Below the pieces are notes generated by a model. It ran no database searches. It had not been told where the DNA came from and worked only from the letters and a program-made list of their open reading frames with translations. The translations under genes were made by a program, and so were the position numbers. Of a stretch of DNA of 64,000 nucleotides, positions 15,063 to 35,140 are shown in pieces. How positions within the stretch are numbered: the stretch's first letter is position 1; every line of letters starts with the position of its first letter. Source of the DNA: a virus; IMG/VR virus record IMGVR_UViG_3300044620_000527, positions 1-64,000 of that record. One strand, given 5' to 3'.

Positions 15063-16951
15063 AACCAGATTTTTCAAAATTAGACTATAGCGACATTAAA
15101 CAGAATTTAATAACTTTTCTAAAGTCGCAAGATAAATTTAATTCCTATAATTTTGAGGGATCTACATTAAACATTCTTTTAGACATACTGGCATATAACA
15201 CACATTACCAATCATTATACAATAACATAACATTTAATGAAGCTTTTTTGGACACGGCTCAAAAAAGATCATCCGTAGTTTCAATTGCTAAAAATTTAGG
15301 ATATACTCCCGAATCTTCACGATCAGCAACATGTGCGGTAGAAGTTTTAATTGATGCAAATTCTAATGGTGGATTGTCTTCTTATACAATACCAAAAAAT
15401 ACAGCATTTAAAGTTAACAAAGATAATAGTGTTTATTATTTTTACAACTTAAATGATGCGGTTTATACTCCCAATACTTACAATGAAACCACTGGTTTAG
15501 TGGAAACTTATACAACAGGTAGTATAGTTTTAAAAGAAGGTACGTTTAAAACCGTAAATTTTGTGATAAATGGTTCCAATCCAACACAAAAAATAACTTT
15601 AAGAAGTACTAATATCGACACAAATACAATTTCCGTAAGAGTACAAAATTCTACAAGTGATTCTTCAGGCATAAATGATGTTTGGGAAGAAGCAAAAAAT
15701 ATGGTAATGGTTGACGGTTCTTCTAAAGTATATTTTCTAGAAGAGGGACCAGATGAGAACTATAGAATATATTTTGGAGATGGTATAATAGGACAATCTT
15801 TAAATGAAGGTAATTTAGTAATAATTACATTTTTAGAAACTAATGGGGAAGAAGCAAACGAAATAGGAGTAAATGATGAAGAAGGTGCAAGAGTATTTAC
15901 TTCTCCATCTCTACCAAATACAACAGTTATAGTGAGAACTCCATCATATGGTGGTTCAAGTCGTGAAACCACTCAATCTATTAAATACAAAGCACCAAAG
16001 GCATTTAGTACTCAAGAGCGTGCCGTAACTGCTGACGATTATTCTATAGTCTTGCAAAATGATTTTTCTTTTATCAAATCTATAAAATGTTGGGGAGGAG
16101 AAGATAATACACCACCCGCTTATGGAAAGATCTTTATATCAATAAAACCAGAAAACAGAGCAGCACTTTCAAACACAGAAAAAAATGCTATATTGCGTTC
16201 TCTGACAAAAAATAGAGCAGTTGTAGGAATAATACCAGAATTAGTAGATCCCAATTTGATTTATTTAATAATCAATTGTGATGCTAAAGTCGATATCATT
16301 AAAACAAATGGCTCAATTGAAAGTCTTAAGACTAAAATAATCAGTGCAATAAATGAATACATTCAAACAAATTTGGATGTTTTTGATGCAGATTTGATAG
16401 TAAATGAATTGGAAAATACTATTAAAAATACTGACACTTCTTTGTTAAGTGTTACTGTCACTCCCCAACTAGAATACAGATTAACTCCTGTTTATGGAAC
16501 GGCTGTAGATTACACTATTAATTTCCAAAATGAAATAGTCAAAAGTGATAGTATTGATAAACCAAATATAAAGTCTTCAAGATTCAACTATTACGATTAT
16601 CAAAATAACATAAGACTTTGCAGAATATATGATAATGGTTCTGGTAAATTATATCTTGCTTTTGAAAATGGTAATAAAGAATATAGCATTGGGAAATTTT
16701 CAAACATAGATTTAACCGAAAATGCACCAGAATATATTGGTAGTATAGATTATGAAACTGGTATTTTATCTCTTACAAAATTTAAACCACAAATTAATGA
16801 AGAAAATAACCCATTTATAAAGTTTTTTGCTAACGTAGTAGATTCTGATGTGTTTGTAAATCCTGATACAATTTTAACAATAGATAGTGATGATCCTAAT
16901 TCTGTTGTTATCAACTTGACAGAAACTGCTTATAGAAAACCAATTAAATGA
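15059..16951 (+). CDS. 6: Baseplate wedge subunit gp6
   Basis: The 630 residues are near T4 gp6 (660). The N-terminus FSKLDYSDIKQNLITFLKSQ, then FNSYNFEGSTLNILLDILAYN, YNNITFNEAFLDTA and RSSVVSIAKNLGYTP is the characteristic gp6/gpJ-like start. The middle holds YRIYFGDGIIGQ and the TYDDYS-like TADDYSIVLQNDF. gp6 dimers form the ring around the hub that ties the six wedges. It overlaps gp25 and the next wedge gene by 4 bp each. Confidence 0.95.
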   Translation: MKPDFSKLDYSDIKQNLITFLKSQDKFNSYNFEGSTLNILLDILAYNTHYQSLYNNITFNEAFLDTAQKRSSVVSIAKNLGYTPESSRSATCAVEVLIDANSNGGLSSYTIPKNTAFKVNKDNSVYYFYNLNDAVYTPNTYNETTGLVETYTTGSIVLKEGTFKTVNFVINGSNPTQKITLRSTNIDTNTISVRVQNSTSDSSGINDVWEEAKNMVMVDGSSKVYFLEEGPDENYRIYFGDGIIGQSLNEGNLVIITFLETNGEEANEIGVNDEEGARVFTSPSLPNTTVIVRTPSYGGSSRETTQSIKYKAPKAFSTQERAVTADDYSIVLQNDFSFIKSIKCWGGEDNTPPAYGKIFISIKPENRAALSNTEKNAILRSLTKNRAVVGIIPELVDPNLIYLIINCDAKVDIIKTNGSIESLKTKIISAINEYIQTNLDVFDADLIVNELENTIKNTDTSLLSVTVTPQLEYRLTPVYGTAVDYTINFQNEIVKSDSIDKPNIKSSRFNYYDYQNNIRLCRIYDNGSGKLYLAFENGNKEYSIGKFSNIDLTENAPEYIGSIDYETGILSLTKFKPQINEENNPFIKFFANVVDSDVFVNPDTILTIDSDDPNSVVINLTETAYRKPIK

Positions 16952-18807
16952 TCGAATTAAAGATTAAAACTCCGGTCGCAAATGATATAGTTTTTTCGGA
17001 TTTAGTAACTATAAATTACGAAGTGCGAGATACTGATGGTTTGTTTTCAACTGTAGTTTTTGAAATCGGCAATTCGGTTTATGAAAAAACTAATAGAGTA
17101 GATTTATTTAATGTAACTTTGACTGAAGGTAATCACGTTTTAACTTGCTATATTAGAAACAAATATGGCAAAGAATTACCAAATACTAGAAAAACAATAT
17201 ATTTTTCAACAAAACCTATTACGTTAGAATTAAAAAATCAATTATCTTCTGTAGTAAGTGCTACTATACCTGATTTCTTGCAATATGAATATGGTGTATT
17301 TGTAGAATTTGTTAAAGAATATTATAGATGGATGGAATTAAGTAAAAATGTAAATTACATTCCACACTCTATTGAACAATTCTTGGATGTAGATACTGTT
17401 CCACCAGAGTTAATTGATAAATTTTATGAAACATATCTTGCAGTTTTTCCTAAAAAATTTGCAACAGACAAGGAAACTGGAAACAAAGTTGATATTACAA
17501 AAATTATAAAAAGAATTAGAGATTTTTATAAAAGAAAAGGAACCGAAGATTCTTTTAGATTTTTGTTTAGATTGATGTTTGATGCGGAAATAACTCTTTC
17601 ATATCCTAGAGAAAAAATTATAACAGCATCACAAGGGAAATGGGTAGTACCAACATTTATAAGAATACAAAATTTAACAGAAGATAACTGTGGATTTTTA
17701 ATTGGTAAAGAGATTTATGGTCTTGATGCAAATGGTAATAAGTCTTTCTTTGCAGTAGTAGAAGATGTTTCATTTTTCTTTGGTACTGGAAGAAACGTAA
17801 CAACTGCTCATTTAAGTGACGTATATGGTCAATTGACAGATTCTTCAGTATTCTATGACGAAGTTGTTGAAGGAATAACACAACAAGTAGAATTAAAATT
17901 GTTTTCTATGATAGTTGGAACAGAATTAAATACATGCGAAAATGCACTAGGTTATGGAAAATACGATTTCAAATATGGAGATAAACTGATACTAAGTGGT
18001 TATGGTAGTACTACAAAATATACATGCAGTGGATGTGTTCAAAATGTAGAGTATCCAGAAATTGTCATTAAAGCACTCGGTAGTGGATTTAGAGGAATTG
18101 TGGAAAGTGTTAGCGAATTGGGTGAAATATTAAAAGTTAAAATATTAGATCCGGGATACGATTACACAGAAACCAATATAAGTTACTACACAACACAATT
18201 AAATAATCCACACCCAGAAAACGAAAATAACCCAGGTCCTCAATTATCATATGATTGTAGGATATCATACCAAACTGGCTATTTGTTTAAAGATGAAGGT
18301 CGTTATTCTACAAAAAAATCACTATTATCTGAAATTGCAATACTTCCCGACAATTTTTACTATCAACAAAATTCTTATGAAATAGGATCTTCAATAACTC
18401 CTCTTTCATATTCAGAAATATTAAAACAAACAGTACACCCTGCCGGATATAAACCATTTTATCGATATGATGTTTTAGATTTACTGCAAGAAAGTCGAGA
18501 TCTGTTCGCTGCTACATCTACTCCAAGTATTAGACCAATAAAACCAAAACCAGATCCATTTTCTGGAAGAGTTGTAAACGCAGAAATAATTCGAGAAAGT
18601 GATAGAATATTTACTAGTGCCGATAGGATTGGCGAATCTGAACCTGTTTTGAGATTTTTACAAGAAGTAATTATACCAACCGAACCAACGACGGATGATA
18701 ATCCCACAGATTACAGCCCAGAAACAGGACCATCTACCGATTCCATTATAGATATAATACCAGAATACGCTCCATATAGAGCAGAGCCTTTACTTTACGA
18801 CTTATAA
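16948..18807 (+). CDS. Baseplate wedge protein, gp7-like position
   Basis: The 619-residue protein follows gp6 with a 4-bp overlap, the place of gp7. Residues about 105-215 carry the motif set seen in wedge proteins of marine T4-like phages: IPDFLQYEYGVFVEFVKEYY, WMELSKNVNYIP, IIKRIRDFYKRKGTEDSFRF and LFRLMFDAEITLSYPREKI. An N-terminal Ig-like domain (about 1-90, with TVVFEIGNSVYE and EGNHVLTCYI) precedes it. T4 gp7 is much longer (1032), so one-to-one identity with gp7 is not certain. The C-terminus is proline-rich and ends just before the giant gene, whose ATG is three bases on. Confidence 0.75.
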   Translation: MIELKIKTPVANDIVFSDLVTINYEVRDTDGLFSTVVFEIGNSVYEKTNRVDLFNVTLTEGNHVLTCYIRNKYGKELPNTRKTIYFSTKPITLELKNQLSSVVSATIPDFLQYEYGVFVEFVKEYYRWMELSKNVNYIPHSIEQFLDVDTVPPELIDKFYETYLAVFPKKFATDKETGNKVDITKIIKRIRDFYKRKGTEDSFRFLFRLMFDAEITLSYPREKIITASQGKWVVPTFIRIQNLTEDNCGFLIGKEIYGLDANGNKSFFAVVEDVSFFFGTGRNVTTAHLSDVYGQLTDSSVFYDEVVEGITQQVELKLFSMIVGTELNTCENALGYGKYDFKYGDKLILSGYGSTTKYTCSGCVQNVEYPEIVIKALGSGFRGIVESVSELGEILKVKILDPGYDYTETNISYYTTQLNNPHPENENNPGPQLSYDCRISYQTGYLFKDEGRYSTKKSLLSEIAILPDNFYYQQNSYEIGSSITPLSYSEILKQTVHPAGYKPFYRYDVLDLLQESRDLFAATSTPSIRPIKPKPDPFSGRVVNAEIIRESDRIFTSADRIGESEPVLRFLQEVIIPTEPTTDDNPTDYSPETGPSTDSIIDIIPEYAPYRAEPLLYDL

Positions 18808-18809
18808 TT

Positions 18810-21800
18810 ATGCCAAATATTAATTCTAATATTCAAAAACAATCTGTTCAGGGTTTCTTGGGTTCATTTTTAAATAACCCAAATAATATTTTTAATCAAG
18901 CATTGGGTTCTTTGCCAGATGCACCACCAACACCAACGGATGAAGTGCAACAAGAAACCGATAACACAGTAAATCCTGATCCAGTTTTGTTTATTATTAC
19001 TGGTGAATCTAATGCTGGTGGATTTGCTTACAATGGTAGTGCATTGGCATCAGAATTAAATCAAAGAAATAATGTTCAAATATTAAACAACAATAATTTG
19101 ACTTTTGAATCTTTGAGATTTGGATTTAATGGTAATAACTTCTTAGGTCATCTTCCACAACCACCATACGCAGATGTAACTGATGCTTCATATTGGAACG
19201 CATATCCGTGGGGCACAACAGCAGTTGGTGGATATCCACATGGCTTTGAATTGGGATTTGCTAATGAAGTTGATAGTGGATATTTTGGAAATAGTGAAGT
19301 TTATTTGTGCAAAGTTGCAATGGGTGGTTCTACTGTTTTTGATTGGGATACCGACAGTAATACTACAACTGGTTATTGGGAAAAATTTGTTGAAAGAGTA
19401 GATGCAGCAAAAGCACAAGTTGGTGCATCTGCAAATATTTTTATATGTTTAACGATTGGTATTAATGACGCATATGCGTTTGACAGAGCACATGCTCCCG
19501 GAAATTTGTACGAAAATGGTAAAATTAAACAATGGGTAGATACTGGTATTTGGGAAGATCCATTTACTGAAGAAGATATTGAGAGTTGGAAAACTCAAAT
19601 GCGTGCTCATTTCACAAACATGAGAAATGCAGTTGGTTTTAATGCTCCAATTCTTATTACTTATTTAATGGATAGAGTTCCAATTTTCCAAAAATTTAAT
19701 GTGGCAATTGGTGAACTTGCAAATGAGGATAATCTTTTATATTGGGTAAAAACTTCAGATGCTTCATTAAATGCAGATTCTATCTGGAATAATACTGTAA
19801 ACTTTAGAAATAAAGACTTTGTGCATTGGGATTATTCTGGAATGAAATTAATTGCTTCCAGATTCACATATCTTGCAACAGAAGTATTTGGATTAAACGA
19901 TCAATATGATCAAAGTTTAATAAATCCACCAGCACAAGATGAAGCAGATTTATCGACAAACATAGATGCCGCAGACTATGAAGTATTTGCCGCCGCATGG
20001 ATACGTGAGGTTGATGAAAATGCAACTTCTGTTGTTCCTATGATTTGGGTCGATAATATGGGTGGATGGGTTGGTACTACGACCACTGATAATGAGGCTT
20101 GGACCAATGAATATGTTAGTGCTATAAATTATACAAATTTTAAAAATAAGTTATTAGAAGTTCCACAAGGTAGAAGAGTATTACAAACAACTTTTTGGTC
20201 AGCAGCACCAGTAAATGTAAATTGGAGTCCTTTAACTTATATTGATTACTATGCAGATCTTGAAGGAATAAGCGTAAACAATACAAATTTAAAGTATCCA
20301 GATTTTACACAATCACAAAAACTACCATTTTCAGCATGGCACGAAAACATAATAGCAGATGCTAAAACTAGTGTAAATCAATTCTTTGCTCGTTGTGCTG
20401 CGGATGGATTGTCTTTTGATTACATTACTGACAACTCAATATACACAGATGGAGCAAATCCAAATATTTGGACAATAAGCCAACAACAAGCTATAGGAAC
20501 TTGTGGTGGTAATGCAACTTATAACATTTACGTTTCTGTAAATGATGGAAACGATTCTTGGAGTGGCGAAAACCCAAGTGTTGGTGGACTAACAGGACCA
20601 GTTAAAACACTACAAAAAGCAGCCGATTTAGCAAAAAATTATACCGGTCCATTAAATATTGAAATTCGTATAAGAGGTGGTACTTATAAAATTTTAGGTA
20701 CATCTTCTAATCCAGTTTTCTATTTAAACGAATCTTATAGTGGAACAAACGGAAGAACAATAACTTATAAACCATATAAAAATGAAGAAGTTATAATTTC
20801 TGGTGACGAAGAAATTGCTTGGACGGAATTTACTGCGTTAAATTCTTCAGATCCACTGTGGAGTCGTCTGGCCCATAATCCAACTGCTCAGGCGAATGTA
20901 TATGTTGCTGACGTTACTGATTATGATTTGGGTCAATATCCTCCAGCATGGCGAGGAATGCCACAAGCAACAAGTGGTTATAAAACGGGATTGACTGGTG
21001 TGCCTGGTGGACAAGCAGCCGAAATGTGGTCGGGACAACCAGCAGTTCCAGATTTAATATACAACGATACAGCAATGACTGTATCTCGTTGGCCAAAGAA
21101 AACATCTTTTTCTGGCTATTCTTTTGATGAATGTGCTCACATAGAAAATTTAAGTACTGCAATCATTGATACAGGCACCGAAGGTGTTTGTTGGAATGAT
21201 CCCGTTGCCTGTGCATCAAAACGTCAAGGCAAATTTAAATATGAATGTTTTCATGAAAATTATCATGATGTAATCTCTAGATGGGCAGTTAATTCTGGAA
21301 CAGATGAACAACCATTTGATGACATTTATTTGTTTGGATTTTGGAGATTTGAATGGGCAGAAGAAACATTCAAATTAGTAAATATTGATTTGGATGACAG
21401 AGAATTTACAGTAAGATCTCAAAATTCACATTATACAATAACTAATACTCATTATTGTTATTCTGGTTCAGATTTGGGTCGCGGTTATGCAAATCCTACA
21501 CCAAGAAGATGGTATGCGTTTAACGTTCCAACCGAAATAGGACCAGGTGAATATTATATTGATAGAACTAACAAAAAGTTATATTTCTATCCTCCAACTG
21601 CTCTATCTTCCAGTAGTAAAATTAGTTTAACTCATAGAGCTTTAACTGGACCGGGTTCCATTTATTTCCAATCTCATGATGTAATTCAATCAGAACATCA
21701 ACATTATGGTTCTGATCCAAATCATCCAAACAATACATTTAAATATCCGGGATGGGTAAATTCTCCATTGGGTTGGGATAGTAATGGTGGTGGAACACAA

Positions 21801-24800
21801 TCCAGAGATATAATGAATAATAAAGACGTAATTCACTCTTTATTTAAATTGTATAAAGTAAAAAACGTCAACATTGTTGGATTAACTTTTAAAAACTGTG
21901 CTGGAAGTGCCATTGATACTCAATTGTGTGAAAATATTAATATAAAACAATGCAAAATATACAACATGAAATTGGATGGAATTTGTTCTCAAGGTGGTAT
22001 TAATGTTGTTATAGATTCGTGTGATGTCCATGATGTTATGATGAATGGTATAGTAAATACTGGTGGTAATCCACAAACTCTAGAACCCGCAAACAATGTT
22101 GTTACCAAATGCAGAATCCAAAGATATGGAATTTCTGCACCATCTGCATGTGCAGGTGTGATTATAAACGGTGTAGGTAATACAGCATCAAAGAATTTAT
22201 TTAAAGATGGTGCAAGAGCAGTACAACTTCAAGGCTCAAAGAATATAGTTGAATACAATCATTTTTATGAATTATTAAAAGATCAAGAAGATTATGGTGT
22301 TGTTTATGGTGGAGGAGATGTTCTTACTTTTGGTAGTAAGATCCGTTACAATTTCTTTAATACCTGTGGCAGTAGATTGCCGGGTGGAAGAGAATGGTAC
22401 AATAAATATGATACGACAGACCCGTTTCCATATGGTTGCCGCGATCAACAACATCAATTATCTGTTGGTGTTTATTCTGATGCCTATCAATCTGGTTGGG
22501 AAATATTTGGTAATGTATTTTATAATCACGGTTTACCTTCTTCTTTAGCACCAGATGGCCCAGTTGTACAGGGTTGGTGTGTGAATATAGGAGGTGGTCC
22601 AAGAAATTCAATTGAAAACAATATTTTTATCAATTCCACTGGTTCTCAAACTAATTCCGCGGCTGGCTCATTTATAGTTAATCCAGCATTAACTAATTTT
22701 AATTACCTATACAAAGATTTAGAGTGGACTTATTTAAATCCAAATAATATTGTATATCAACCATTTGGTTATACCGATGGACCAGCAAGAGGATATAATT
22801 TTTGGAATTATTTAGCATCACACGGACTTAATAGATGGAATGATGGTGTTGGTTTTACTACAACTGTCGATATAACAAATGCAGCATATACGGAACAAGC
22901 ACCTTGGATCGCCGGTGATGTTAAAATTGAAACTATCAACGGTGTAAGAACGTTTACTGGATTTAAAGATGTACAACAGTACGCTAATTTGAAAGCAACA
23001 GTAAAAAACAATGTATTAATTAATCACTATGGATTTATTAATGGTAAGTCTATAATATTAAATATGACAAATTCAAACGGTGGAACATATCCAAATATGG
23101 ATACAAATCCACCAACAGGTGGGTTTGATGTAACAAATACTGTAACTTTTGCCAATTTGGAAACATTTGCCGGATTTACTAATCCATCAACTAGTAATTT
23201 TAAATTAACATCAAATGGATTGACTAAGATTCGTGAACAAATACCGCAATTCACAGATATTAATTTTGATCTGATTCCATCTTCGAGTTATGTTCCACAG
23301 GCTTATGTTGCACAAACCGAAAATTATGCTTGCAATTTGAGACACTATACTGGTACTGTGGATTTTGCAAATCCAAATATTTTAGAAAGTATAGTAACAG
23401 ATCCTCGTTTTACAACTACAGTAAATCCAGTTAATGGAAAAACTTTAGAACAAGATTTTATGGATCGTTACGAATATTGTGTTACTAAAAATAACACAAC
23501 AGATAGAACAATATATCCATATTATTCTACATCTTGGTATAATTCAGCAGAACCAAATGCATATGATGCATTTGCTCCTATGTTTGGTTGGTTGTATTCT
23601 GCACAACCAGAATATGATATGGAAGTTCCACCGTGGGGCACTTCAAGTAATAATGCTGCCACACGCGCATGGACCGCAGTATTGACCGACTGGGGTAATT
23701 TATATTACAGACTAGAACTATTTAAAGATCCATTAGTTGATAATGGTTTTACAAATGTTAAAATTTCTTTGGATGGACATTATCCTGTCAGTGAAACTGA
23801 AATGGAATTTATGGATATGGACAACTTGTGGATTGAAGCCCCAAGAGAAGATAGTGCAGATTCAATGATTGCACCACACATATATGCTGAGTTGGGTACT
23901 ACTGCGTTTAATTTATATGGTTATAAGATCAATCCAGAAAATGATGATCAAAAATATAAATTTGCAAAACTTCCACAAGGTGTTGCGGTAGAAGGATTCG
24001 AACGATATACATCTCCAGCATGGTTAGCATTTTTAATCGATATGAAACGTATTCGTGGAGTTATAAATTCCAGCGAAACCGCATGGCAAAGATTGACTCC
24101 GTGGTTAATTAGTAAAAAGTGGTGCGTCGCTGAGAGATTTAGATTCTGTGCAGCAAATGGTGGCGAATACGCAGATGCCTATTGGAAAGAAGCAGTATTT
24201 CATGCATGTTTACATGGTACTCTCTATTTTAACTATTTTAATTACGATAAATCAGATACTTTAGATTTACATGAAGTACTTGATGAGTGGAGAGAAAACT
24301 CAAATAACAGTAGAGTGCAGCCAGTAGTAAAAACAAAAATTCCAGTAAATACTAGTGTATTTGTTTCTGGTGGTAAATTATTAAATTCAAACAGATACTT
24401 GTGGAGATTAACTGCCAAACCTTCAACATCAGTTACTTTGAGAGCATTTGGTAGTAGTACAACTAGAAGTGATATACCACAAACAATAACACTAGATGCA
24501 AATAGCAGAGGAGCTTGGTTATTAACTGCCAGTTCTGTGCCTCCAATTTATATTTTAGATGAAGGTGGACAACAAGAAACAGTAGATTTAGAATATGTTA
24601 CAATGATAGATACAAATTTTACCACATTCCTACACAAGAATAAAGCAATGGGTGGAGGAGCAAACCATGACTATGGTAGTGGTATTGGATTAGATGCTCA
24701 AGGCAAATCTATTTCTCCTATAAATTATTTGTACGAAAGTGGTCAAACAGTATCGTTGCTTTTGGGAGCTAATCTAAATTGGATGTATGAAGACAATTAT

Positions 24801-27800
24801 AGATTAGATAGCAATGGACAAGCAATAAGAGTAATAAAAAATATAACTCCAACACAATCTGTTACTCTTTGCACAGATCCTTGCTACCAAACAGCCGCTT
24901 GTTATCAATCTCCTAGATTGGTTGATTCCGTTTTTTCCGAAATGATGTCAATTGATGGTGAATGGGGTCCAGCATTAAGACAAAATGATCCATTCCCAAA
25001 TAACAATGGAAGCAGAAATTACGATTATATTACTATAAATGAACAAGTATTTACTGCTCAACCTTATGATCCAAATAAACCTATAGATTATTCTTACGAT
25101 TATTTTGGAAATTATGTAATTGAAAGTACACAAATACCAGCAAGTTTCTGGGTAAGAAGTACCACTCAAAACGGAAGACCAGATTTAGCATATAATTACG
25201 ACGAACAAGGAACACTGGGTAATTCAACAAATTATTCTTCAGTTGCAACAGGTTGGTCGCCAGTATTATTCTGGACAACGGAGGATGGAACCTTAAAATG
25301 GTCAACAACTATTCCGGTGTATTCTGGTTATAATTTAATTCCTCCAACAGAGTATCAATCTTTAAAGTATAAACAAATAACTGTTGGTTATGGACAAGTA
25401 TACGGTTTAACTACAAATGACACAATTGTTGGTTGGGGTGGAGATGGTAGTGTAAAAAGAAATACAGAATTCTTCATGCAACAATTGAGATATATGCAAC
25501 GATCTGGTGAAAAATTACACGAAGTAAAAATAAAGAAGATTGCTGCTGGTGCAGGACATTGCAATGTTCTGATGGAAAATGGTGAATTGTTTGTATTTGG
25601 AGGAAATGAAGGAGCACAATTGAGCGATCCAAACACAGTTTGGACACCAATTGGATTGATTCCACTTCCAGTTGTTAATGATGCTCTTTATATTACAAAT
25701 CCGGTTCCTTATACCTATTACAAATACGAACAAGATAAGTCATCTTATTTGGTTTCATTTGGTAGTTCTGAAAATGTCGGTACAAGTAATGCATGTGTAC
25801 CAACACCAGTGGGTAGTATAAAATATAGATTGTTTAGAAACAATTTGTTAGGTTGTGATATACATGAAGGCACGCCAAATGGTAGATATGATACTCCTTA
25901 TGTGAGAGGAACATCTTCATATCCGAACGATACATATCCACCAACTGGAAGTGCTGCTTGGAGTGGGTTGATTGATTGGTCCACCCATACTGGTGCTCCA
26001 TATGATTATCAATTCTCTAGAGCAACCGTAGGAAATCAAGACAGTCCAAACTATAGTTTAAATGGTTCTTGGACAAGAAGTGATAGACGTTTGCCAATGG
26101 TTCAAGCAAGCGGAGGAACTTCTTTAGGATATACTAATGCTGCTGGGCAACAAATTCCAAATTCTCTATTCGGTACTTCTGGAAACAAATATACAGATGT
26201 TGTTGCCGGACGAACGCACACAATTGCATTAACACAAAATGGAAATATAGAAACTTGGGGTTGGAACTGGTATTACACAATAACCGGAAGTGGTCCTCAT
26301 GATGGATCTTTGGGTTGGAATAGAGTTGGTGCGGGTAATCCAAATGCAGATTCAGACTCAGATCCAATCACAAAAGCAGCACCATATGGATATAATACAG
26401 CCCCCGCAGTAAAATTGCTTAAAACCACTTTGGGTTCAGTTAAAGCAATTGGTGCTGGTTATTATACAAATCAAGTCATAAAAAATGACGGTAGTGTATT
26501 TGCTTGGGACAGAAATGAATGGGGAGAATCTTTACCGTTCTTCAATTCAGACGAAACTGCTGGTCTACCAACAGGCAAATTTAAACAAATTTGTGGTTCC
26601 TATCACCACACAATCGCACTCCGTGAAGATGGAACAGTTGTATGTTGGGGTGAAAACAGATATGGAGAATGTGATGTGCCGGCTTCATTAAAGAATGTAA
26701 ATACGGCAGATTGTGTATGGATTGGTAGTTGCGCTTACGTTTCTTTGGCTCTAAAGAGAAACGGCGATTTGATTGCATGGGGTAGAGTAACCGATTTGAA
26801 GGCTGGTGCGGTTTCTGGACAAAAACTTTTAGATGAAAAAATATTCCTAAATCAAAATAGTCCATTTGTTCTGGGTTATGAATATCCAGTAAAACACTCA
26901 AATCTTTCTTTAGAAATTAAGAGTGCAAACGATGCGCCTCATGTAAGAAATGAGCCAGGAAATATGTTTAAATACACCGGATTCTTATTTGCTCCGGTGA
27001 GAAAAGACGATGGATGTGCAGATCACGTTTATTTCTCGTTGTTCCAAAAAATGTTGGAAAACGAAAAAGAAATGGCAGATTATCAATATTTTGTAAATAA
27101 TTTACCAAACGTGCCTTCTTGTGTTCTACAAAGTTCTGCTTGGAATAATTATCATGCAGATGAGTATGTAAACGGAGAATATAGACCAAAATATGTTTTA
27201 GTAAATTATGAAGCAGAATTGGTAGATCAAATAAGATCCGTCAATGCAACCGGCAGAAAAGTTCTTGCAGATGGAACAAAAGCATATGTTACAATTGAAG
27301 GTCAACCCATAAATGAAAATCTATGGCAAAGAGTTGTTTCATATGTAAAATTAACAAGAAAAATGAACCATTACATACGTCAAGTGTTTGGTAATCAAGC
27401 AAACATTGCACACTATGACATGTATGCTGTTCCATTCTATCAAGATTGGAAGGGCGGTGGACAATGGTATCCCAATAATGGAATACTATTCAGTCAAGAG
27501 TATCAAGTAACAGAATGTGCGTATTGTGATGAATTGTTACCAGATTATCCTGGTCATGCTGTATATAATAATCTACCAAATAGTGAAAAATTAATTTGGA
27601 TTGAAAAGGCAGTCAAAGCACTTCAAGATAAAGTGTTTAGAATGGCAAAAGCAATATCAAAAATGTGTTTGTTTGAAAATGCTGAAGGTGAACCCGATAC
27701 TTTAGATTTAAGAGAAGATTTATCTAGTTTAATGCCTCAAATCGATCCAAGTAATTTTATCATAACAGGATTAAACCATTATCCAAATTCAGTTCATGGT

Positions 27801-30740
27801 GCTTTGGCAACCAATACACACAAGTATTACACTTGCACAAGTAATGGTTTTAACACAACAGCACAAGTTGAATCATTAAATGATGCGGAATCAAATAGAA
27901 GTAGAGAAATGTCGATTCACTTTAAAGAACAAGGAAGAGTTGGTTTATTCAATAATCAACGTTCCGGTAAATTCTTTTCACCGTTCGTGCAAGGAGTGTG
28001 TGGTTCTGACGTTGCGGAATCCTTCTACGAATTTTACAGTTCCAGTGATCCAAATAATGCTGGTTATAAAAAATCTTGGACAAGTTTTAGATTTGACGCC
28101 CAAGAAATATCAACATTACCAACCACAACAACTAATCCATCACATCCCGCTGGAACAAGAATTTATACAAATAAATCATCACCAAAGAGTGGTTTAAGAA
28201 GAAGTTTTGCATTAGACTTCCCAATAATTAGCATCAATAATGATTTGTGTGCTAAATTGAATCTAAATTCTGCTATAAAGCAAAAAGACGAAATAATTTG
28301 GTCAGATAATACTACTTCAAATTATGTTGCAACTAAATTGAATTATATGATAACTGCAACAGAAGGTATTTACGAACAACCAAGACCATGTGCTCAAAAC
28401 GAAACGCCACATGCTGGTTGCCGAGATATTGTAAATAATCCCTATGTAAAACCAACAATATTTGATCATACAACAAAAATAAGAAAAAATGATTATGATA
28501 CTTTCCAATGCAGTACAAATCCTGGCAATAGTGATTACAGTCCAAATTGTAAAAATTATTGTTATGCTAATCCAGTAACTCCAGACAGAGGTGCTGCATC
28601 GATATTGAGTATACTTTCCACCAGAAAAATAGCATATGAACTTGCTGTGGAATATGCAAGTTATGATGATATGGTCGCAGTGCCCTACGAGGACTTAACT
28701 AATGATCCATATTGGACTGGATACTATGGTAAATTTGCTCGTTTTGATCCATTTATAACAGAACCTCCGGCCACAATTCAAGAAGCGTCAAATTATGCAA
28801 ATTACGATGATACAACATGGCCCAATATTAGACTATCAGAAACTGCAAAACGTGTCCAAGGTCTTTCTATAATATTGAGTTTCCGTAAAGATGGATCGTT
28901 GCATAAATTTATGAAAAACCAAGAGCAAACTCACATTAGAGATTGGCCTCAACCACCGGCACAATTTAATGTAGATCGTAGACCTGGAGTAGCGTGTACT
29001 TTACCAGTTGCTGGTGGAAATAACACATACTTGTCGTTTACAGGAGACAACCAAAATGCAAATGCATTGTGGGTGAAGGATACCGGTATACAAAAAATTA
29101 TAGAAAATTATTTAGAATATAATTATAATAGAGGATATAGAAGATTCTTAGTTTGGGTTCCATGTGGTTATTCAACTACATATGGACCAGGATATACTTC
29201 AGCAATAACTTCTGCAATGAAGCACAGAGTGTATACTGGTGGTATTATCAATCCATCCGAAGCATGTTGGCATGGTAATAATCTTCCAATAGATCCTGCA
29301 ACTGGTCTAAGAATACCACAAACGGTTCAGCAAGCACAAAGCACAACACTAACATTTAATGAAAACGGAAGATTGAATGAATGGTTAACTCAGTTAGGTG
29401 CTTGGATTGCTGCACACCCACAAGCGGATGTTGGCTTGTATATCGGATATGCAATACCAACATTAAACGGTACACCAGTTGGTGATATTGGAATTAGTGG
29501 GGATCTTGGAAATGGTTCTTCTGGACAAAATGCACAATCTGGTAGAGGATGGCAAACTCCAAATCCAGCGAATAATGCAATTCACGCACAATTCTTAAGA
29601 AATGAATTACAACCTTGGATTGATATTGGAATTAATTTCTTAGCGATAGATGCTGGACCTGGAATGTTTAATTATGAAAATGGTGGTAGTGTATCGTATG
29701 GACCAAATGCTGCGTCAAGACAAGCCGTAGGTGACTACAAGGCTTGGTTGATTGAAGAGTTTGGTTTAAAGACAGTAATGGCAGAAGCCCTTGCTATCGA
29801 TCCAAGAGCACCAATATTAGATGAATTTAATAAAGTTGCAAATACTAGTTATCCAAGAAAAACATTAATGAAAATTGATCTAACTGAGGAAATTTGTAAG
29901 GGAACTGCTGTTCCTTCACAAAGTGAGGCAGGAGATCCTTTCAATACAGTATATACCGACGATTGTTGGTACAATAAAGGTAGAGAGAGATATAGAAAAC
30001 TAGATGCTAGTGGAAAAGATTATAGAACAGAATCAGGTGATCCTAATGATTTAGTTTATTCTTCTGGTGCTTATCAATACTGTCCTTATTTAATTTTGTT
30101 AAACGGTTACTTAAATCAAGGAGAGTGGAATATTGGAAAAGAAAATGAAAGTGGAATAGGAGGATTTGCTGGTCTAGATCCAAATAATATGTTCTCTTGG
30201 TATAGAAGAAACACTGAAATAGGAGTAATTGTAGAAAATTACTACTTATTAAGTTCAGAATTGCGTAAAGTTTATAGAGATAATTTTACAAATTGGCAAG
30301 GTTACGGAAGATTGTGGGAAACTTCTCCAGCATGGCACGATCAAGGACTTGCCACACCAACAGCAGCAGTAAGTTCTTCTAATCTAATTGGTCCACACGA
30401 CGGCAGACAACACACAAGAGATTCTGAATTCTACAATAGAGTTAGAAATGAAATTTTTGCAAAAATTAAAAACTATATTGATAGAGGTTACGTCTACTGG
30501 GCGTCCATAGGAAAACTTGATGGACAACTGAATAAAGATGTGGATCAAGATGTAAGAACTTATGTTGATGCTGTAGAAATTGACTATGGCAGTTATGCTC
30601 AAGATGAAATAACAGAAAATGAGCAACCACCACAAAGAATTTACAACACAAATTCACCAAATAAATATGCAGCAGATGAAATCTTGTTTGAAAATTTCAT
30701 AAATACATCAACAAGTACTGACGAAAGCACAGAGGGTTAA
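18810..30740 (+). CDS. Giant multidomain tail protein: SGNH esterase-like, beta-helix and RCC1-like domains
   Basis: This single frame of 3976 residues (over 400 kDa) lies between the gp7-like gene and gp8. No ribosome binding site is evident before its ATG, so coupling to the gp7-like gene is likely. Residues about 50-365: a sialate O-acetylesterase-like SGNH hydrolase with GESNAGG (Ser67), VAMGGSTVFDW, and DFVHWDYSG (Asp336, His339). About 570-1300: a pectate-lyase-like parallel beta-helix (GPVKTLQKAADLA, then NVNIVGLTFKNCAG and repeats). About 2187-2665: at least six RCC1-like blades such as VVAGRTHTIALTQNGNIETW and YHHTIALREDGTVVCWGENR. Other segments (about 380-570, 1300-2150, 2700-3950) are aromatic-rich and look enzyme-like, but I cannot name them. 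It is probably a receptor-binding or capsule-degrading appendage; that is inference. Confidence 0.85.
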   Translation: MPNINSNIQKQSVQGFLGSFLNNPNNIFNQALGSLPDAPPTPTDEVQQETDNTVNPDPVLFIITGESNAGGFAYNGSALASELNQRNNVQILNNNNLTFESLRFGFNGNNFLGHLPQPPYADVTDASYWNAYPWGTTAVGGYPHGFELGFANEVDSGYFGNSEVYLCKVAMGGSTVFDWDTDSNTTTGYWEKFVERVDAAKAQVGASANIFICLTIGINDAYAFDRAHAPGNLYENGKIKQWVDTGIWEDPFTEEDIESWKTQMRAHFTNMRNAVGFNAPILITYLMDRVPIFQKFNVAIGELANEDNLLYWVKTSDASLNADSIWNNTVNFRNKDFVHWDYSGMKLIASRFTYLATEVFGLNDQYDQSLINPPAQDEADLSTNIDAADYEVFAAAWIREVDENATSVVPMIWVDNMGGWVGTTTTDNEAWTNEYVSAINYTNFKNKLLEVPQGRRVLQTTFWSAAPVNVNWSPLTYIDYYADLEGISVNNTNLKYPDFTQSQKLPFSAWHENIIADAKTSVNQFFARCAADGLSFDYITDNSIYTDGANPNIWTISQQQAIGTCGGNATYNIYVSVNDGNDSWSGENPSVGGLTGPVKTLQKAADLAKNYTGPLNIEIRIRGGTYKILGTSSNPVFYLNESYSGTNGRTITYKPYKNEEVIISGDEEIAWTEFTALNSSDPLWSRLAHNPTAQANVYVADVTDYDLGQYPPAWRGMPQATSGYKTGLTGVPGGQAAEMWSGQPAVPDLIYNDTAMTVSRWPKKTSFSGYSFDECAHIENLSTAIIDTGTEGVCWNDPVACASKRQGKFKYECFHENYHDVISRWAVNSGTDEQPFDDIYLFGFWRFEWAEETFKLVNIDLDDREFTVRSQNSHYTITNTHYCYSGSDLGRGYANPTPRRWYAFNVPTEIGPGEYYIDRTNKKLYFYPPTALSSSSKISLTHRALTGPGSIYFQSHDVIQSEHQHYGSDPNHPNNTFKYPGWVNSPLGWDSNGGGTQSRDIMNNKDVIHSLFKLYKVKNVNIVGLTFKNCAGSAIDTQLCENINIKQCKIYNMKLDGICSQGGINVVIDSCDVHDVMMNGIVNTGGNPQTLEPANNVVTKCRIQRYGISAPSACAGVIINGVGNTASKNLFKDGARAVQLQGSKNIVEYNHFYELLKDQEDYGVVYGGGDVLTFGSKIRYNFFNTCGSRLPGGREWYNKYDTTDPFPYGCRDQQHQLSVGVYSDAYQSGWEIFGNVFYNHGLPSSLAPDGPVVQGWCVNIGGGPRNSIENNIFINSTGSQTNSAAGSFIVNPALTNFNYLYKDLEWTYLNPNNIVYQPFGYTDGPARGYNFWNYLASHGLNRWNDGVGFTTTVDITNAAYTEQAPWIAGDVKIETINGVRTFTGFKDVQQYANLKATVKNNVLINHYGFINGKSIILNMTNSNGGTYPNMDTNPPTGGFDVTNTVTFANLETFAGFTNPSTSNFKLTSNGLTKIREQIPQFTDINFDLIPSSSYVPQAYVAQTENYACNLRHYTGTVDFANPNILESIVTDPRFTTTVNPVNGKTLEQDFMDRYEYCVTKNNTTDRTIYPYYSTSWYNSAEPNAYDAFAPMFGWLYSAQPEYDMEVPPWGTSSNNAATRAWTAVLTDWGNLYYRLELFKDPLVDNGFTNVKISLDGHYPVSETEMEFMDMDNLWIEAPREDSADSMIAPHIYAELGTTAFNLYGYKINPENDDQKYKFAKLPQGVAVEGFERYTSPAWLAFLIDMKRIRGVINSSETAWQRLTPWLISKKWCVAERFRFCAANGGEYADAYWKEAVFHACLHGTLYFNYFNYDKSDTLDLHEVLDEWRENSNNSRVQPVVKTKIPVNTSVFVSGGKLLNSNRYLWRLTAKPSTSVTLRAFGSSTTRSDIPQTITLDANSRGAWLLTASSVPPIYILDEGGQQETVDLEYVTMIDTNFTTFLHKNKAMGGGANHDYGSGIGLDAQGKSISPINYLYESGQTVSLLLGANLNWMYEDNYRLDSNGQAIRVIKNITPTQSVTLCTDPCYQTAACYQSPRLVDSVFSEMMSIDGEWGPALRQNDPFPNNNGSRNYDYITINEQVFTAQPYDPNKPIDYSYDYFGNYVIESTQIPASFWVRSTTQNGRPDLAYNYDEQGTLGNSTNYSSVATGWSPVLFWTTEDGTLKWSTTIPVYSGYNLIPPTEYQSLKYKQITVGYGQVYGLTTNDTIVGWGGDGSVKRNTEFFMQQLRYMQRSGEKLHEVKIKKIAAGAGHCNVLMENGELFVFGGNEGAQLSDPNTVWTPIGLIPLPVVNDALYITNPVPYTYYKYEQDKSSYLVSFGSSENVGTSNACVPTPVGSIKYRLFRNNLLGCDIHEGTPNGRYDTPYVRGTSSYPNDTYPPTGSAAWSGLIDWSTHTGAPYDYQFSRATVGNQDSPNYSLNGSWTRSDRRLPMVQASGGTSLGYTNAAGQQIPNSLFGTSGNKYTDVVAGRTHTIALTQNGNIETWGWNWYYTITGSGPHDGSLGWNRVGAGNPNADSDSDPITKAAPYGYNTAPAVKLLKTTLGSVKAIGAGYYTNQVIKNDGSVFAWDRNEWGESLPFFNSDETAGLPTGKFKQICGSYHHTIALREDGTVVCWGENRYGECDVPASLKNVNTADCVWIGSCAYVSLALKRNGDLIAWGRVTDLKAGAVSGQKLLDEKIFLNQNSPFVLGYEYPVKHSNLSLEIKSANDAPHVRNEPGNMFKYTGFLFAPVRKDDGCADHVYFSLFQKMLENEKEMADYQYFVNNLPNVPSCVLQSSAWNNYHADEYVNGEYRPKYVLVNYEAELVDQIRSVNATGRKVLADGTKAYVTIEGQPINENLWQRVVSYVKLTRKMNHYIRQVFGNQANIAHYDMYAVPFYQDWKGGGQWYPNNGILFSQEYQVTECAYCDELLPDYPGHAVYNNLPNSEKLIWIEKAVKALQDKVFRMAKAISKMCLFENAEGEPDTLDLREDLSSLMPQIDPSNFIITGLNHYPNSVHGALATNTHKYYTCTSNGFNTTAQVESLNDAESNRSREMSIHFKEQGRVGLFNNQRSGKFFSPFVQGVCGSDVAESFYEFYSSSDPNNAGYKKSWTSFRFDAQEISTLPTTTTNPSHPAGTRIYTNKSSPKSGLRRSFALDFPIISINNDLCAKLNLNSAIKQKDEIIWSDNTTSNYVATKLNYMITATEGIYEQPRPCAQNETPHAGCRDIVNNPYVKPTIFDHTTKIRKNDYDTFQCSTNPGNSDYSPNCKNYCYANPVTPDRGAASILSILSTRKIAYELAVEYASYDDMVAVPYEDLTNDPYWTGYYGKFARFDPFITEPPATIQEASNYANYDDTTWPNIRLSETAKRVQGLSIILSFRKDGSLHKFMKNQEQTHIRDWPQPPAQFNVDRRPGVACTLPVAGGNNTYLSFTGDNQNANALWVKDTGIQKIIENYLEYNYNRGYRRFLVWVPCGYSTTYGPGYTSAITSAMKHRVYTGGIINPSEACWHGNNLPIDPATGLRIPQTVQQAQSTTLTFNENGRLNEWLTQLGAWIAAHPQADVGLYIGYAIPTLNGTPVGDIGISGDLGNGSSGQNAQSGRGWQTPNPANNAIHAQFLRNELQPWIDIGINFLAIDAGPGMFNYENGGSVSYGPNAASRQAVGDYKAWLIEEFGLKTVMAEALAIDPRAPILDEFNKVANTSYPRKTLMKIDLTEEICKGTAVPSQSEAGDPFNTVYTDDCWYNKGRERYRKLDASGKDYRTESGDPNDLVYSSGAYQYCPYLILLNGYLNQGEWNIGKENESGIGGFAGLDPNNMFSWYRRNTEIGVIVENYYLLSSELRKVYRDNFTNWQGYGRLWETSPAWHDQGLATPTAAVSSSNLIGPHDGRQHTRDSEFYNRVRNEIFAKIKNYIDRGYVYWASIGKLDGQLNKDVDQDVRTYVDAVEIDYGSYAQDEITENEQPPQRIYNTNSPNKYAADEILFENFINTSTSTDESTEG

Positions 30741-30741: not shown

Positions 30742-33180
30742 ATGTCAAATTTCAGACAAAGAGGAAGAGAAAATAATGCTAAAGTATTTTTGAATGATTT
30801 TAATCAATCAAAAAGCAGTTCGTATTTTGTTTCTATTGGTAATGCTGTAACTTCTTCTACAGCATCCTCTTCCCGATTTGCGGATTGTGTGGAAACAGAT
30901 CAGTATACTTGGGATAATATGTTTGTTATGAATGAAATATTCAGAACAGATGTATCATTAATGATTAAAAAAATAGATTGGATTTCTGGAACGCGGTATG
31001 AGGCTTTCGATAAAAGCAAAAATCAATATGAATTAAATGAAAAGTTTTATGCATATAATAACACCAACAACAGTGTTTATTTGTGTCTTGCTAGTCCAGA
31101 AAACGAAAATGCATTTAGTACATATGCTCCAACAAGCGAAACCATAGAACCAGAAATAAAACAAGATGGTTATACGTGGAAGTTTTTGTATAAATTAAGT
31201 GATATTGATTTGGAAAAATTTGATTATCCGGGATTTATACCAGTTAAAGAAATAGGAACTGATCTCTATACAGATGAACGAATTTTACAACAAAATGTAC
31301 AAGCAAATACAATCAGAGGTGCGGTTGAAGCAATTGATGTTGTTGTGCAAGGAAGCGCATACAATGGAGCAGTAAACGCAAATTTTGAAAATGCATTTTA
31401 TGCAATACAAAGTGTGGTGCAAGAAACAGGTGAAGATGGTACAGTAAGTCTTTCAGTAATAGTAGATGATGCTTTGCAAGAATTAAATAAAACACAAAAT
31501 TTTTACAAAGACAAATATGTAATTAATTTTGAAAATGGATATACTGCGGTATTGGATGGAAGTGGATTCAATAATAATGGAGATTTCCAAATTGACATTT
31601 GTACGGATCAAATAGTTCAATTTGGTCCAACTGGAACACTACCACCAACTACAGTACAATTTAGAATTTTACCAGCAATTAAAATAATTGGTAATGGTAA
31701 TGACGCTTGGGCTATTCCTACATTAGATGCTGCTAAAAAATTAACAAAGATTAAAATGTTAAAAATTGGATCTAATTATAGTTATGCAGAAGCAAGAATA
31801 TTAGTCTCAAATGGTACAGTCTTAAAACCAATCATTGGTTTAAATGGTCTAACTTCAGATATTACTCAAATATTAGGCGCAAAGCATGTTATGATTTCTA
31901 AAAAAATCAAACCAGTAACAACTTTGTCGGAAAGTGATCCAGTAATTTATTCTTTACCGGAAAATATAGGATTAGTATATGAGGGACCTCAGTATAAAAA
32001 TGTAATAACACCAAATACATTTTATACTCAACTTGCATTAATTAAAAGTCCAAAAATTCTAAATGAAGATAATTTAGAAGAAATCGCAGGAACACAAATA
32101 ATAGAAGTTAGAGAAATGGTTTTGGATGCTATTAATCCCAAAATAACAATTACAATAGGAACAGCACAAAATCCATATGTCAATCCTAATGATTTTTTTG
32201 AAGTAAATGATATTATTGTTAGAGGACCCGATAATCTTCCAGATCAATTTAGAGCAAAAATAACGGATGTAATGGTAACAGGTTTCAGTACAATATTGGT
32301 TTGTGATTTGATCAACGGCGCATTTGAAACATATTCTGGTTATAAGATTAAAAACTTAAAAGAAACTACTGAAACTATAGATGATTCATTTTTTATATTT
32401 TTAGATTGTGACAATAATTGTTCAAAAGCAATAAAAGTTCAATATGAAAATACGTTTTTACAAACCGATTTTATTAATGATGATTCGGTTTATGGTACGG
32501 TAAGTTATGAAACGGCTGAAATAAAACAACCATTAACTGGTTATGCATATGTAAATCCACTATATCCAACAAAAGCAAAAATAAAAGTAAATAATCCGGG
32601 AACAGGATTTATACCAGCAAGATATGAAGATGGTGAATATATCCCCGGTGAAATTATAACTTCTATAGTAACTGTGGAAAATCAAACTAGAGCAGTAACA
32701 AGAGGGACTTTGGTTTCTATAAGCGATCCCATAGAATATATTGGAGAACAAACTTTAGGTTATTCTTATATTTTGGAGTGTGTAATTGATAGAGATGGGA
32801 TAGATACTGCTTTTGAATTAGTGAATTCTGATAATATCTCACTGGAAACCAATACATTAATTCGTCAAGGAACAACAGGTTCTTTAGGAAAAATAATAAG
32901 AGTTGGAATTCCTTCCGGTACTGGGGATGCAAACATAGTCTATTTGTATGTAAATAATTACAATGGTCCATTTTATGCGGATGGACAAACTAAAATTTAC
33001 AAAATAAATAGTTTATATGAACCAACTGAATATGTTGATATGAAAATGACCGTACAAAATATACTTTACCAACCAAAGTTAGTGCGTTACTCTGGTAATT
33101 TGTTATATATAAATGATGTAGGGCCTGTGCAACGTAAGTTGGAAAATACAGAAAATATCAAACTATTAGTGGAGTTCTGA
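30742..33180 (+). CDS. 8: Baseplate wedge subunit gp8
   Basis: The 812-residue protein starts with RENNAKVFLNDFNQSKSSSY, FVSIGNAVTS, then MNEIFRTDVSLMIKKIDWIS and TRYEAFDKSKNQYE, and YTWKFLYKLSDIDLEKF. This is the N-terminal domain of gp8 in marine T4-like phages. T4 gp8 has 334 residues; the extra length is beta-rich modules with repeated strands (ITITIGTAQNPYVNPN, KIKVNNPGTGFIPARY). gp8 dimers link wedges to gp7 and gp10. It begins one base after the giant gene's stop with GAGGGTT upstream, and is followed seven bases later by the DUF4815 protein. Confidence 0.85.
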   Translation: MSNFRQRGRENNAKVFLNDFNQSKSSSYFVSIGNAVTSSTASSSRFADCVETDQYTWDNMFVMNEIFRTDVSLMIKKIDWISGTRYEAFDKSKNQYELNEKFYAYNNTNNSVYLCLASPENENAFSTYAPTSETIEPEIKQDGYTWKFLYKLSDIDLEKFDYPGFIPVKEIGTDLYTDERILQQNVQANTIRGAVEAIDVVVQGSAYNGAVNANFENAFYAIQSVVQETGEDGTVSLSVIVDDALQELNKTQNFYKDKYVINFENGYTAVLDGSGFNNNGDFQIDICTDQIVQFGPTGTLPPTTVQFRILPAIKIIGNGNDAWAIPTLDAAKKLTKIKMLKIGSNYSYAEARILVSNGTVLKPIIGLNGLTSDITQILGAKHVMISKKIKPVTTLSESDPVIYSLPENIGLVYEGPQYKNVITPNTFYTQLALIKSPKILNEDNLEEIAGTQIIEVREMVLDAINPKITITIGTAQNPYVNPNDFFEVNDIIVRGPDNLPDQFRAKITDVMVTGFSTILVCDLINGAFETYSGYKIKNLKETTETIDDSFFIFLDCDNNCSKAIKVQYENTFLQTDFINDDSVYGTVSYETAEIKQPLTGYAYVNPLYPTKAKIKVNNPGTGFIPARYEDGEYIPGEIITSIVTVENQTRAVTRGTLVSISDPIEYIGEQTLGYSYILECVIDRDGIDTAFELVNSDNISLETNTLIRQGTTGSLGKIIRVGIPSGTGDANIVYLYVNNYNGPFYADGQTKIYKINSLYEPTEYVDMKMTVQNILYQPKLVRYSGNLLYINDVGPVQRKLENTENIKLLVEF

Positions 33181-33187: not shown

Positions 33188-35140
33188 ATGACATTTAAGA
33201 ACCCAGATTTTGCTTCGAATTCACCATATTATGACGACTTTGAGGAAACAAAGAACTTCCTAAAGGTTCTTTTTAAACCCGGTTATGCTGTTCAAGCTCG
33301 GGAACTTACTCAATTACAAACAATATTACAATCTCAAGTTGCTAAATTTGCAGATCATATATTCCAAGATGGTAGTCAAGTTTTTGGTGGACAAATACAA
33401 ATAGTAAGTACACCTTATGTGAGAGTTGAAAAAACAACTTACAACACTGGTGGAACTTCTACTGGAAATTCTTCCGATTCTTATATTGATGGTCTTACTA
33501 CTAACTTATTAAAAGTATACAGCAAAAGCGGAACAACTTTTACTGAATTGGCAACAATTAAAGTTTCTTATAGTGAACCTGCTGGCTATTCTGCGGCAGA
33601 TGATTATAGTATCATATTCTATAATGTTATATCAGTTGCTCCATCTGTCGCAAGCGGAACATTTACTATGGACAGAGATTTGTACATCGGCACATCAACC
33701 TCCGGACCATTTTTAAATGTTATAAATCCAACACTAGAAACAACAAATCCAGATCAATACACAGTTGAATATTCTGGAAATGCATTCTTAGTCACCGTAA
33801 ATGATGGTATTTTTTACATAGATGGTTACTTTGTAACAACTACAAAACAAACAATATCGTTATTTAAAAAGTCACTAGATGACGAATCTGAATTAACTGT
33901 AGATAGTGGATTATCTTATCCAACATTCGCACAGGCTGGAGTTCGTTTATTCAATAAACCATCTCATAGAATTGGTTACTCAATAAACAGAGAAATAGTT
34001 ACAGCAAACGATGATCCAACTTTAAATGATCCGGCTAGAGGTTTTTATAATTATACCGCACCCGGAGCAGACAGATATAAAATATCATTGGAACTATCGA
34101 GTATAGAATATAAATCTGGTGTAGTTGATATTGATAATTATGTTACTGAAAACTTTATACAAATTTTACGCACAACTAATGGTGTTGTAGATTACATTAA
34201 AGATCAATCTTCTTACGCACAAATTTTAGATTTGTTTGCAAAAAGAACACAAGATGAATCTGGTTCATACACAGTAAAACCATTTATTGCAGAAGTAAAA
34301 AATTATTTAAGAAAAGACAGATACATTTTAACTGTACAGGCCAATACTGTTAGTGAAATTTTTCCAAGCAGTGTTCCTATTATTAAAGTTGGTGGTTATA
34401 TTTGGTCAAATACCATACCAAATGCTGCAAACTACAATCCATATACATCTGCCTCACTGTTAAATGAATCGTTTTTAATAGGAAAAGTAGTAGATCTAAT
34501 ACCAGAATATAATGAAAACGCTCCAATCGCTAAAACATTAAAATTGATCGTAGAAATACAAAATGGTTACAGATTCCCAACAGGTGCAGGTGGTTATTAT
34601 TATAAACAATCACCATCCATAGCAGTAAGAAATATAAATGTAACATCCGTGACAGTAGAAATAGATCCAAAGGGAACTTACTCTTTATTGGATATTCCGG
34701 TTGGAAGTGAAAATAAAATGGCAGTGTCTTTACAGCCAGGAAAAGCATACGTTCATGGTTATGAATATGAAACATTTGCACCAAGAGTTGTAGAATATTT
34801 AAATAATGGAAATCAAAGTGATACCAAGCTACTAACTGGATTGAATGTTGATTTTGAAATTGGTAATTATGTAAAAGGATCGTTTACCAGCAGAGAAGCA
34901 AATACGATCACAAATTACGAAGAAATGCCTTTAATGGATTTGATTGACGTAGATACGAACACGTTCTTGATCTATCCTTCAGGTACAGAAACAATAGAAA
35001 AAACAATATACGCATGGGCACCTTTTAAATACACAAGCGAAGACATACAGGGTGATATTATAGATATTTTAAAGTTGACTGACAGTGAGGATTTTAATAC
35101 ATCATATCCACACGAAAGCGTCATTTTTGTGTCAGAATAA
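33188..35140 (+). CDS. DUF4815 virion protein, N-terminal part of a gp10-like wedge/fibre-network protein
   Basis: The 650-residue protein opens with NSPYYDDFEETKNFLKVLFK, GYAVQARELTQLQTILQSQ and FADHIFQDGSQVFGG, the hallmark of DUF4815 proteins in marine T4-like phages. There they form part of the outer baseplate that holds fibres. Beta-strand repeats follow, including KMAVSLQPGKAYVHGYEYET. In the relatives I recall, this region continues in the same chain into the coiled-coil and receptor-like parts now found in the next gene. Here it stops, and 20 bases later a new ATG starts the remaining part. GAGGAAACC precedes the start. Confidence 0.85.
   Translation: MTFKNPDFASNSPYYDDFEETKNFLKVLFKPGYAVQARELTQLQTILQSQVAKFADHIFQDGSQVFGGQIQIVSTPYVRVEKTTYNTGGTSTGNSSDSYIDGLTTNLLKVYSKSGTTFTELATIKVSYSEPAGYSAADDYSIIFYNVISVAPSVASGTFTMDRDLYIGTSTSGPFLNVINPTLETTNPDQYTVEYSGNAFLVTVNDGIFYIDGYFVTTTKQTISLFKKSLDDESELTVDSGLSYPTFAQAGVRLFNKPSHRIGYSINREIVTANDDPTLNDPARGFYNYTAPGADRYKISLELSSIEYKSGVVDIDNYVTENFIQILRTTNGVVDYIKDQSSYAQILDLFAKRTQDESGSYTVKPFIAEVKNYLRKDRYILTVQANTVSEIFPSSVPIIKVGGYIWSNTIPNAANYNPYTSASLLNESFLIGKVVDLIPEYNENAPIAKTLKLIVEIQNGYRFPTGAGGYYYKQSPSIAVRNINVTSVTVEIDPKGTYSLLDIPVGSENKMAVSLQPGKAYVHGYEYETFAPRVVEYLNNGNQSDTKLLTGLNVDFEIGNYVKGSFTSREANTITNYEEMPLMDLIDVDTNTFLIYPSGTETIEKTIYAWAPFKYTSEDIQGDIIDILKLTDSEDFNTSYPHESVIFVSE

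Follow-up and report, generated by a model that had tools for sequence, protein, structure and literature searches.

A giant protein with esterase, GH141-type and propeller domains in the wedge operon of a T4-related virus: a probable polysaccharide-processing receptor-binding protein

We analyzed a stretch of 64,000 nucleotides (hereafter, the window) that forms part of a 77,053-bp virus record, and found within its baseplate wedge operon one gene for a protein of 3976 residues, which most likely acts as a virion-borne, polysaccharide-processing receptor-binding protein. As a more specific statement of this reading, we assign a probability of roughly 60% to a modular protein of the baseplate rim that recognizes and processes a polysaccharide on the host surface. 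The source virus is a bacterial virus related to the T4-like ocean phages: its terminase is closest to those of Kyanoviridae-type phages, with the best match in the Methylophilales phage Melnitz (58%).

The gene occupies positions 18810–30740 of the plus strand as a single open reading frame, which runs from an ATG start through 3976 codons to its stop with no internal stop codon; at the base composition of the window, a stop-free run of this length has a chance probability of ~10^-138. It starts 2 bp past a gp7-like wedge gene (16948–18807, plus strand; 619 aa; PHROG 17744, baseplate wedge subunit, E = 6e-41; Pfam PF23786, E = 1.6e-10) and stops 1 bp ahead of a gp8-like wedge gene (30742–33180, plus strand; PHROG 438, baseplate wedge subunit, E = 6e-46), and gp25 (PF04965) and gp6 (PHROG 219, 1e-146) lie further upstream. 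Downstream of gp8 are two genes that jointly match PHROGs 358 and 877, a VrlC-like protein in other phages, and after these come the terminase, sheath, tube, and scaffold genes. The giant gene is accordingly a member of a T4-type wedge operon with the order gp25-gp6-gp7-giant-gp8-VrlC-like, and the location inside the wedge operon proposed in the preliminary description is confirmed by the profile matches of gp25, gp6, the gp7-like gene, and gp8. The tblastn searches showed that the order of the wedge genes is common to HTVC008M, Melnitz, Cr30, and S-SSM7. A recent foreign insertion was rejected on base composition, as the G+C content of the giant gene (35.3%) barely differs from that of the remainder of the window (34.5%), and an internal duplication was rejected after a self-comparison gave no off-diagonal match at E 1.

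Several other features of the window were recorded. The VrlC-like protein is split between 33188–35140 and 35161–41031, likewise in six relatives, and is encoded by one gene in HTVC008M and S-SSM7. Past these genes, 41226–45902 and 45907–48282 encode large proteins of 1558 and 791 aa, for which no PHROG or Pfam match was found at E 0.01; their site is reminiscent of the host-recognition cluster reported from pelagimyophages. At 616–3237, a methyltransferase-like gene, a DegT aminotransferase gene, and an NAD-dependent epimerase/GDP-mannose dehydratase gene are consecutive and possibly constitute a sugar-modification set. The scaffold gene contains a Glu-rich repeat (61532–61669), and a 497-aa tail-fibre-like gene contains a collagen-like repeat of the Gly-Pro-Thr type (58270–58315; unit judged by eye).

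The frame is a real gene, and its first ~3120 codons are under purifying selection. It is wholly included in the IMG/VR contig 3300042695_000821 (L001), which is identical to the window (100%) over 31,928 bp, and another contig (L002), with 99.8% identity across 5.9 kb, stops at residue 643 of the giant. Because the identical contig may share its sampling with the window, the more distant contig L005 (81% nucleotide identity) is the stronger proof. In L005 the frame stays open up to the contig end at residue ~3126, and comparison with the window gave a dN/dS of 0.088 over 3120 codons (residues 1–3126), the differences being distributed over the codon positions as 371/219/1184. The dN/dS was 0.05–0.15 in each of the seven modules compared, module D lying outside the L005 contig. 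The uninterrupted 3976-residue frame between the gp7-like gene and gp8, as first described, is therefore borne out by the reading frame itself, the identical contig, and the selection relative to L005.

The chain begins with a short N-terminal segment (residues 1–42; 18810–18935, plus strand) that is conserved in the three clades of relatives described below; the first 55–59 residues have 39–51% identity to L026, L030, and L031. The segment is a candidate virion anchor, which would probably fix the giant to the baseplate at its outer rim. It is followed by an SGNH/SASA-type carbohydrate esterase domain (residues 43–360; 18936–19889, plus strand), found in the window lineage and L005 only. Pfam SASA matched this piece with E = 2.1e-7 and 31.2 bits (cut-off, 24.8), compared with 20.1 bits, under the cut-off, when the whole protein was searched, and no significant PDB match was obtained for the domain by phmmer. 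The motifs GESN (65–68), GGS (172), GIND (217–220), and DFVH (336–339), which also occur in L005, correspond to GESN, GG, GxND, and DxxH, which we take to be the SGNH blocks. The family profile and these blocks together place the domain in the SGNH/SASA esterases, and we suppose that it would strip O-acyl (acetyl) groups from a host glycan.

Residues 566–1325 (20505–22784, plus strand) form a GH141-type right-handed beta-helix, matched by Pfam Beta_helix (5e-13). A profile built from 3 phage and 12 bacterial beta-helix sequences (A9) found the structure 9rx2 (8.6e-65) as well as the GH141 enzyme BT_1002 (5mqp; 2.5e-26); a phage-only profile matched 9rx2 at 2.6e-14 and 5mqp at only 0.11. The AlphaFold model of the beta-helix part (block pLDDT ~50–82) also had 5mqp as its best match (Z 23.9, rmsd 2.8, 242 aligned residues), with many other beta-helix proteins, among them an alginate lyase, epimerases, and phage tailspikes, close behind (Z 20–23). 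The published catalytic pair of BT_1002 is D523/D564 (PMC10154630, PMC5593877, PMC12786026). In the third and weakest stretch of the alignment, D1161 and D1224 of the giant align with two BT_1002 aspartates 41 residues apart, which we equated with D523/D564 from this spacing and a constant offset counted by hand. All 17 aligned sequences have Asp at both positions (5 of them from phages and 12 drawn from the 62 bacterial loci), and L005 likewise carries both. The domain thus has the right-handed parallel beta-helix and the catalytic Asp pair of GH141; the Pfam signature GH141_M was matched by 11 of the 15 A9 members, not by the window sequence, and by L026 at E = 0.01. Bacterial relatives of the domain were found at 62 loci, the best of which cover nearly its whole length, and the profile was found in 11 of 59 genomes of one bacterial phylum. 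A literature search combining GH141 and phage returned no title on a phage protein among the matches listed. In the giant, this domain would cut glycosidic bonds.

Near the catalytic pair, the window and L005 deviate at two positions (R1169G and D1225A) that are invariant in the 16 other aligned sequences. Because these changes lie beside the GH141 site, we retain a rather small share of probability for a virion-borne binding scaffold or adhesin, in which the enzyme folds would be kept for glycan binding and not for catalysis; the YHYH proteins of 2.5–4 kaa that five cyanophages hold at the same place, with no enzyme domain detected in them, would fit such a role. However, the pair D1161/D1224 has been retained along with the SGNH motifs, and purifying selection acts on both modules. 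Furthermore, the residues of BT_1002 itself that align with the two deviating positions are Ser and Glu, which also speaks against a degenerate GH141 site.

The third recognizable fold is an RCC1/BLIP-II-type beta-propeller (residues 2137–2688; 25218–26873, plus strand), in which the RCC1 repeats were identified by Pfam RCC1_2 at 4.6e-24 and BLIP-II at 9.3e-16. The combination of enzyme-like and binding modules proposed in the preliminary description is upheld by these domain searches and by the conserved catalytic residues in the two enzyme domains. The rest of the chain consists of module A (residues 361–565; 19890–20504), module B (1326–2136; 22785–25217), module C (2689–3234; 26874–28511), and module D (3235–3976; 28512–30737), all on the plus strand, which have 48–53%, 42–48%, 52–54%, and 53–58% identity to the relatives, respectively. 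None of the four had a credible Pfam match (best for module A, E = 0.12), and the searches of PHROGs and of PDB with profiles gave no credible match for B, C, or D. These ~2300 residues have no recognized relatives outside the phage family; B has viral relatives at 8 loci and D at 7, all of them members of this small family. Homologues of B, C, and D were each found in 0 of 294 bacterial genomes of the single phylum in which the beta-helix profile had been found, this control being a different query, and in a set of 12 bacterial genomes module B yielded a single match (E = 0.18). Profile comparison among A, B, C, and D showed no similarity in the four pairs compared, out of six possible. Structure prediction in large pieces succeeded in part: the AlphaFold models covered residues 937–2136 and 2715–3914, and pLDDT was <50 in 1007 of 1200 and 1131 of 1200 residues, respectively. 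Only the beta-helix part was confident, so we claim no fold for B, C, or D; a fold search with the model of module B returned nothing useful, a result that excludes nothing. Purely by eye, modules A-B, C, and D could be additional barrels of the glycosidase type.

To compare the giant among relatives, we fetched the full loci of six of them (L026–L031). Together with the window, they represent three clades, about equally distant from one another in gp6 (66–71% identity). In L026, L027, and L029, the giant is one frame of ~3556 aa without the esterase, which is replaced by a Thr/Asp-rich repeat (read in L026, L028, and L029). The RCC1 cassette is also absent from the clade of L026–L029, as seen from a gap at 2137–2688 in L026 and from blastp for L027–L029. 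This clade carries an insert of ~325 residues in module D, close to residue 3565, which occupies the same place in L027–L029 as in L026. A Pfam scan of the L026 insert suggested BNR/Asp-box repeats (BNR, 2.2e-5; Sortilin-Vps10, 3.8e-6; both below the cut-offs), and the PDB match was Ycf48 (1.2e-4). L028 is otherwise similar to L026, L027, and L029, but its giant gene, on the reverse strand, has an in-frame TGA near residue 1330, where L026 has a sense codon, leaving frames of 1035 and 2520 aa; this may be a true nonsense mutation, recoding, or a sequencing error.

In L030 and L031, there is again no room for the esterase, and the RCC1 cassette is present (RCC1_2 at 1.3e-40 in L030; L031 aligns throughout). 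Here two genes encode the giant: the first stops at residue ~3234, and the second consists of ~290 new residues followed by module D. The new module (L030:10859–11758; in L031, the second gene opens with it) sits exactly where the giant splits. Both copies contain the motifs AC(A/L)HYF / LHYF, DQLLF, and GDSGS, which we liken to a trypsin-type His-Asp-Ser triad. PF13365 matched one of the two records at E = 8e-4, under the cut-off, and no Pfam family was assigned to the module of L030; the best PDB matches (E = 0.5) were capsid proteins, which have the chymotrypsin fold. These motifs give a weak hint of a protease. In separate observations, contigs L013–L025 match part of gp7, and the single IMG/VR sample 3300042695 contains two clades with different cassettes, contig _000821 (L001) with the RCC1/esterase set and contig _000872 (L007) with the BNR-type one.

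As judged by these sequence comparisons, the backbone A-GH141-B-C-D is kept, and the esterase, propeller, and protease-like cassettes have been gained or lost at fixed joints. The propeller, of the RCC1 type in the window and of the BNR type in relatives, would bind a glycan or another surface target, and exchange of the three cassettes would tune the host range. The polysaccharide-processing receptor-binding device envisaged in the preliminary description is thus partly supported, and cassette swapping of the kind found here is what such a device would be expected to show. Counting against it, more than half of the chain has no known fold, and the homologue in L028 has an in-frame TGA. A stronger version, to which we give a clearly lower but still appreciable weight, would be a virion-borne, cellulosome-like multi-enzyme arm, attached to the baseplate wedge, that first deacetylates and then cleaves the polysaccharide, with esterase, propeller, and protease modules exchanged among phage clades at fixed joints and one clade using two chains.

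It is improbable that the giant is instead a late enzyme outside the virion, which would loosen the host exopolysaccharide at lysis or act on neighboring cells. Such a role would suit a beta-helix enzyme type that is widespread in bacterial genomes. However, the gene is packed into the wedge operon within a few base pairs of gp7 and gp8, no export signal is visible by eye at the N-terminus, and cassette exchange behind a conserved N-terminus would better fit the host-recognition proteins of virions. The two-gene arrangement in L030/L031 and the interrupted homologue in L028 might suggest an assembly artefact or an accidental fusion of several genes, a reading that we reject as extremely unlikely on the identical second contig, the open frame and the codon-position bias in L005, and the intact single frames of L026, L027, and L029.

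If the preferred reading of a polysaccharide-processing receptor-binding protein is correct, these viruses provide a natural series in which one baseplate giant varies, at fixed joints, in the enzymes and binding domains that it carries, and the rebuilding of host range by cassette swaps within one virion protein becomes directly testable. The giant also places a GH141-type glycosidase domain in a phage tail operon, the other relatives found being in bacterial genomes. Its notable features are the conservation of catalytic residues in both of its enzyme domains and a visible exchange of cassettes.

Finally, we compared the giant with known systems. Among 50,697 phage records searched at E 1e-5, there were two single-domain matches only, one to the beta-helix (25%, a human-faeces phage) and one to RCC1 (Salicola phage SCTP-2), with no homologue of the whole chain or of A–D; NCBIfam returned nothing. 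Beta-helix and esterase-type enzymes are carried on tails by tailspike depolymerases and virion deacetylases, and Acinetobacter phage Aristophanes reportedly has a structural polysaccharide deacetylase. In keeping with this group, a PHROG search gave a hit to the tail spike family PHROG 7458 (E = 1.3e-6). The giant differs from these proteins in combining both enzyme types and a propeller in one chain of 3976 aa, and it shows no evidence of trimerisation. With the GH141 enzyme BT_1002 (PDB 5MQP) and the related 9rx2 it shares the beta-helix and the catalytic Asp pair, whereas its beta-helix is embedded in a phage giant and its Asp–Asp spacing is 63, compared with 41 in BT_1002 and 37 in Xyn141E according to their published residue numbers. 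Jumbo phage phAPEC6 encodes RCC1-like proteins, and its virion proteome table includes “DNA condensation” proteins (PMC7247149); the RCC1-like proteins there are separate and are proposed to order DNA, in contrast to the cassette within a tail-operon giant found here.

The closest parallel in position and size is found in cyanophages. We surveyed the gp6–gp8 interval in ten phage records. No gene separates gp7 from gp8 in HTVC008M, Cr30, and Ochrobactrum phage OC, and three smaller genes lie there in Melnitz and Mosig (Mosig gp7 being assigned by position). Giants of 2492–4067 aa occur between gp6 and gp8 of S-SSM7, Sf-FS3, Bellamy, S-CAM9, and DSL-LC02, the largest protein per cyanophage being 2514–4067 aa, and these are mostly annotated as gp7, wedge initiator, or virion structural protein. 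The preliminary description was right about the three unrelated folds (SASA/SGNH, right-handed beta-helix, and RCC1 propeller), but it overstated the rarity of such length, since five cyanophages hold proteins of giant size at this locus. A Pfam scan of 11 interval proteins (9 from cyanophages and 2 from Melnitz) detected a YHYH domain in five proteins, a single one per cyanophage; none of the 11 gave an esterase, GH141, or RCC1 hit. In S-SSM7, the gp7 core matches the early and late parts of the first gp7 gene, which places the additional mass within gp7, whereas in the window gp7 has 619 aa and the giant is a separate gene; tblastn gave no match between the giant and the S-SSM7 region, and similarity to the giant gp7 family was thus not found. 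The cyanophage giants therefore resemble the window giant in wedge-operon slot and size and differ from it in having YHYH in place of the esterase, GH141, and RCC1 matches. Giant proteins at the wedge locus are already known, and because those of the cyanophages occupy the same place, the protein described here is a variant of these wedge-region giants that bears GH141, esterase, and RCC1 domains.
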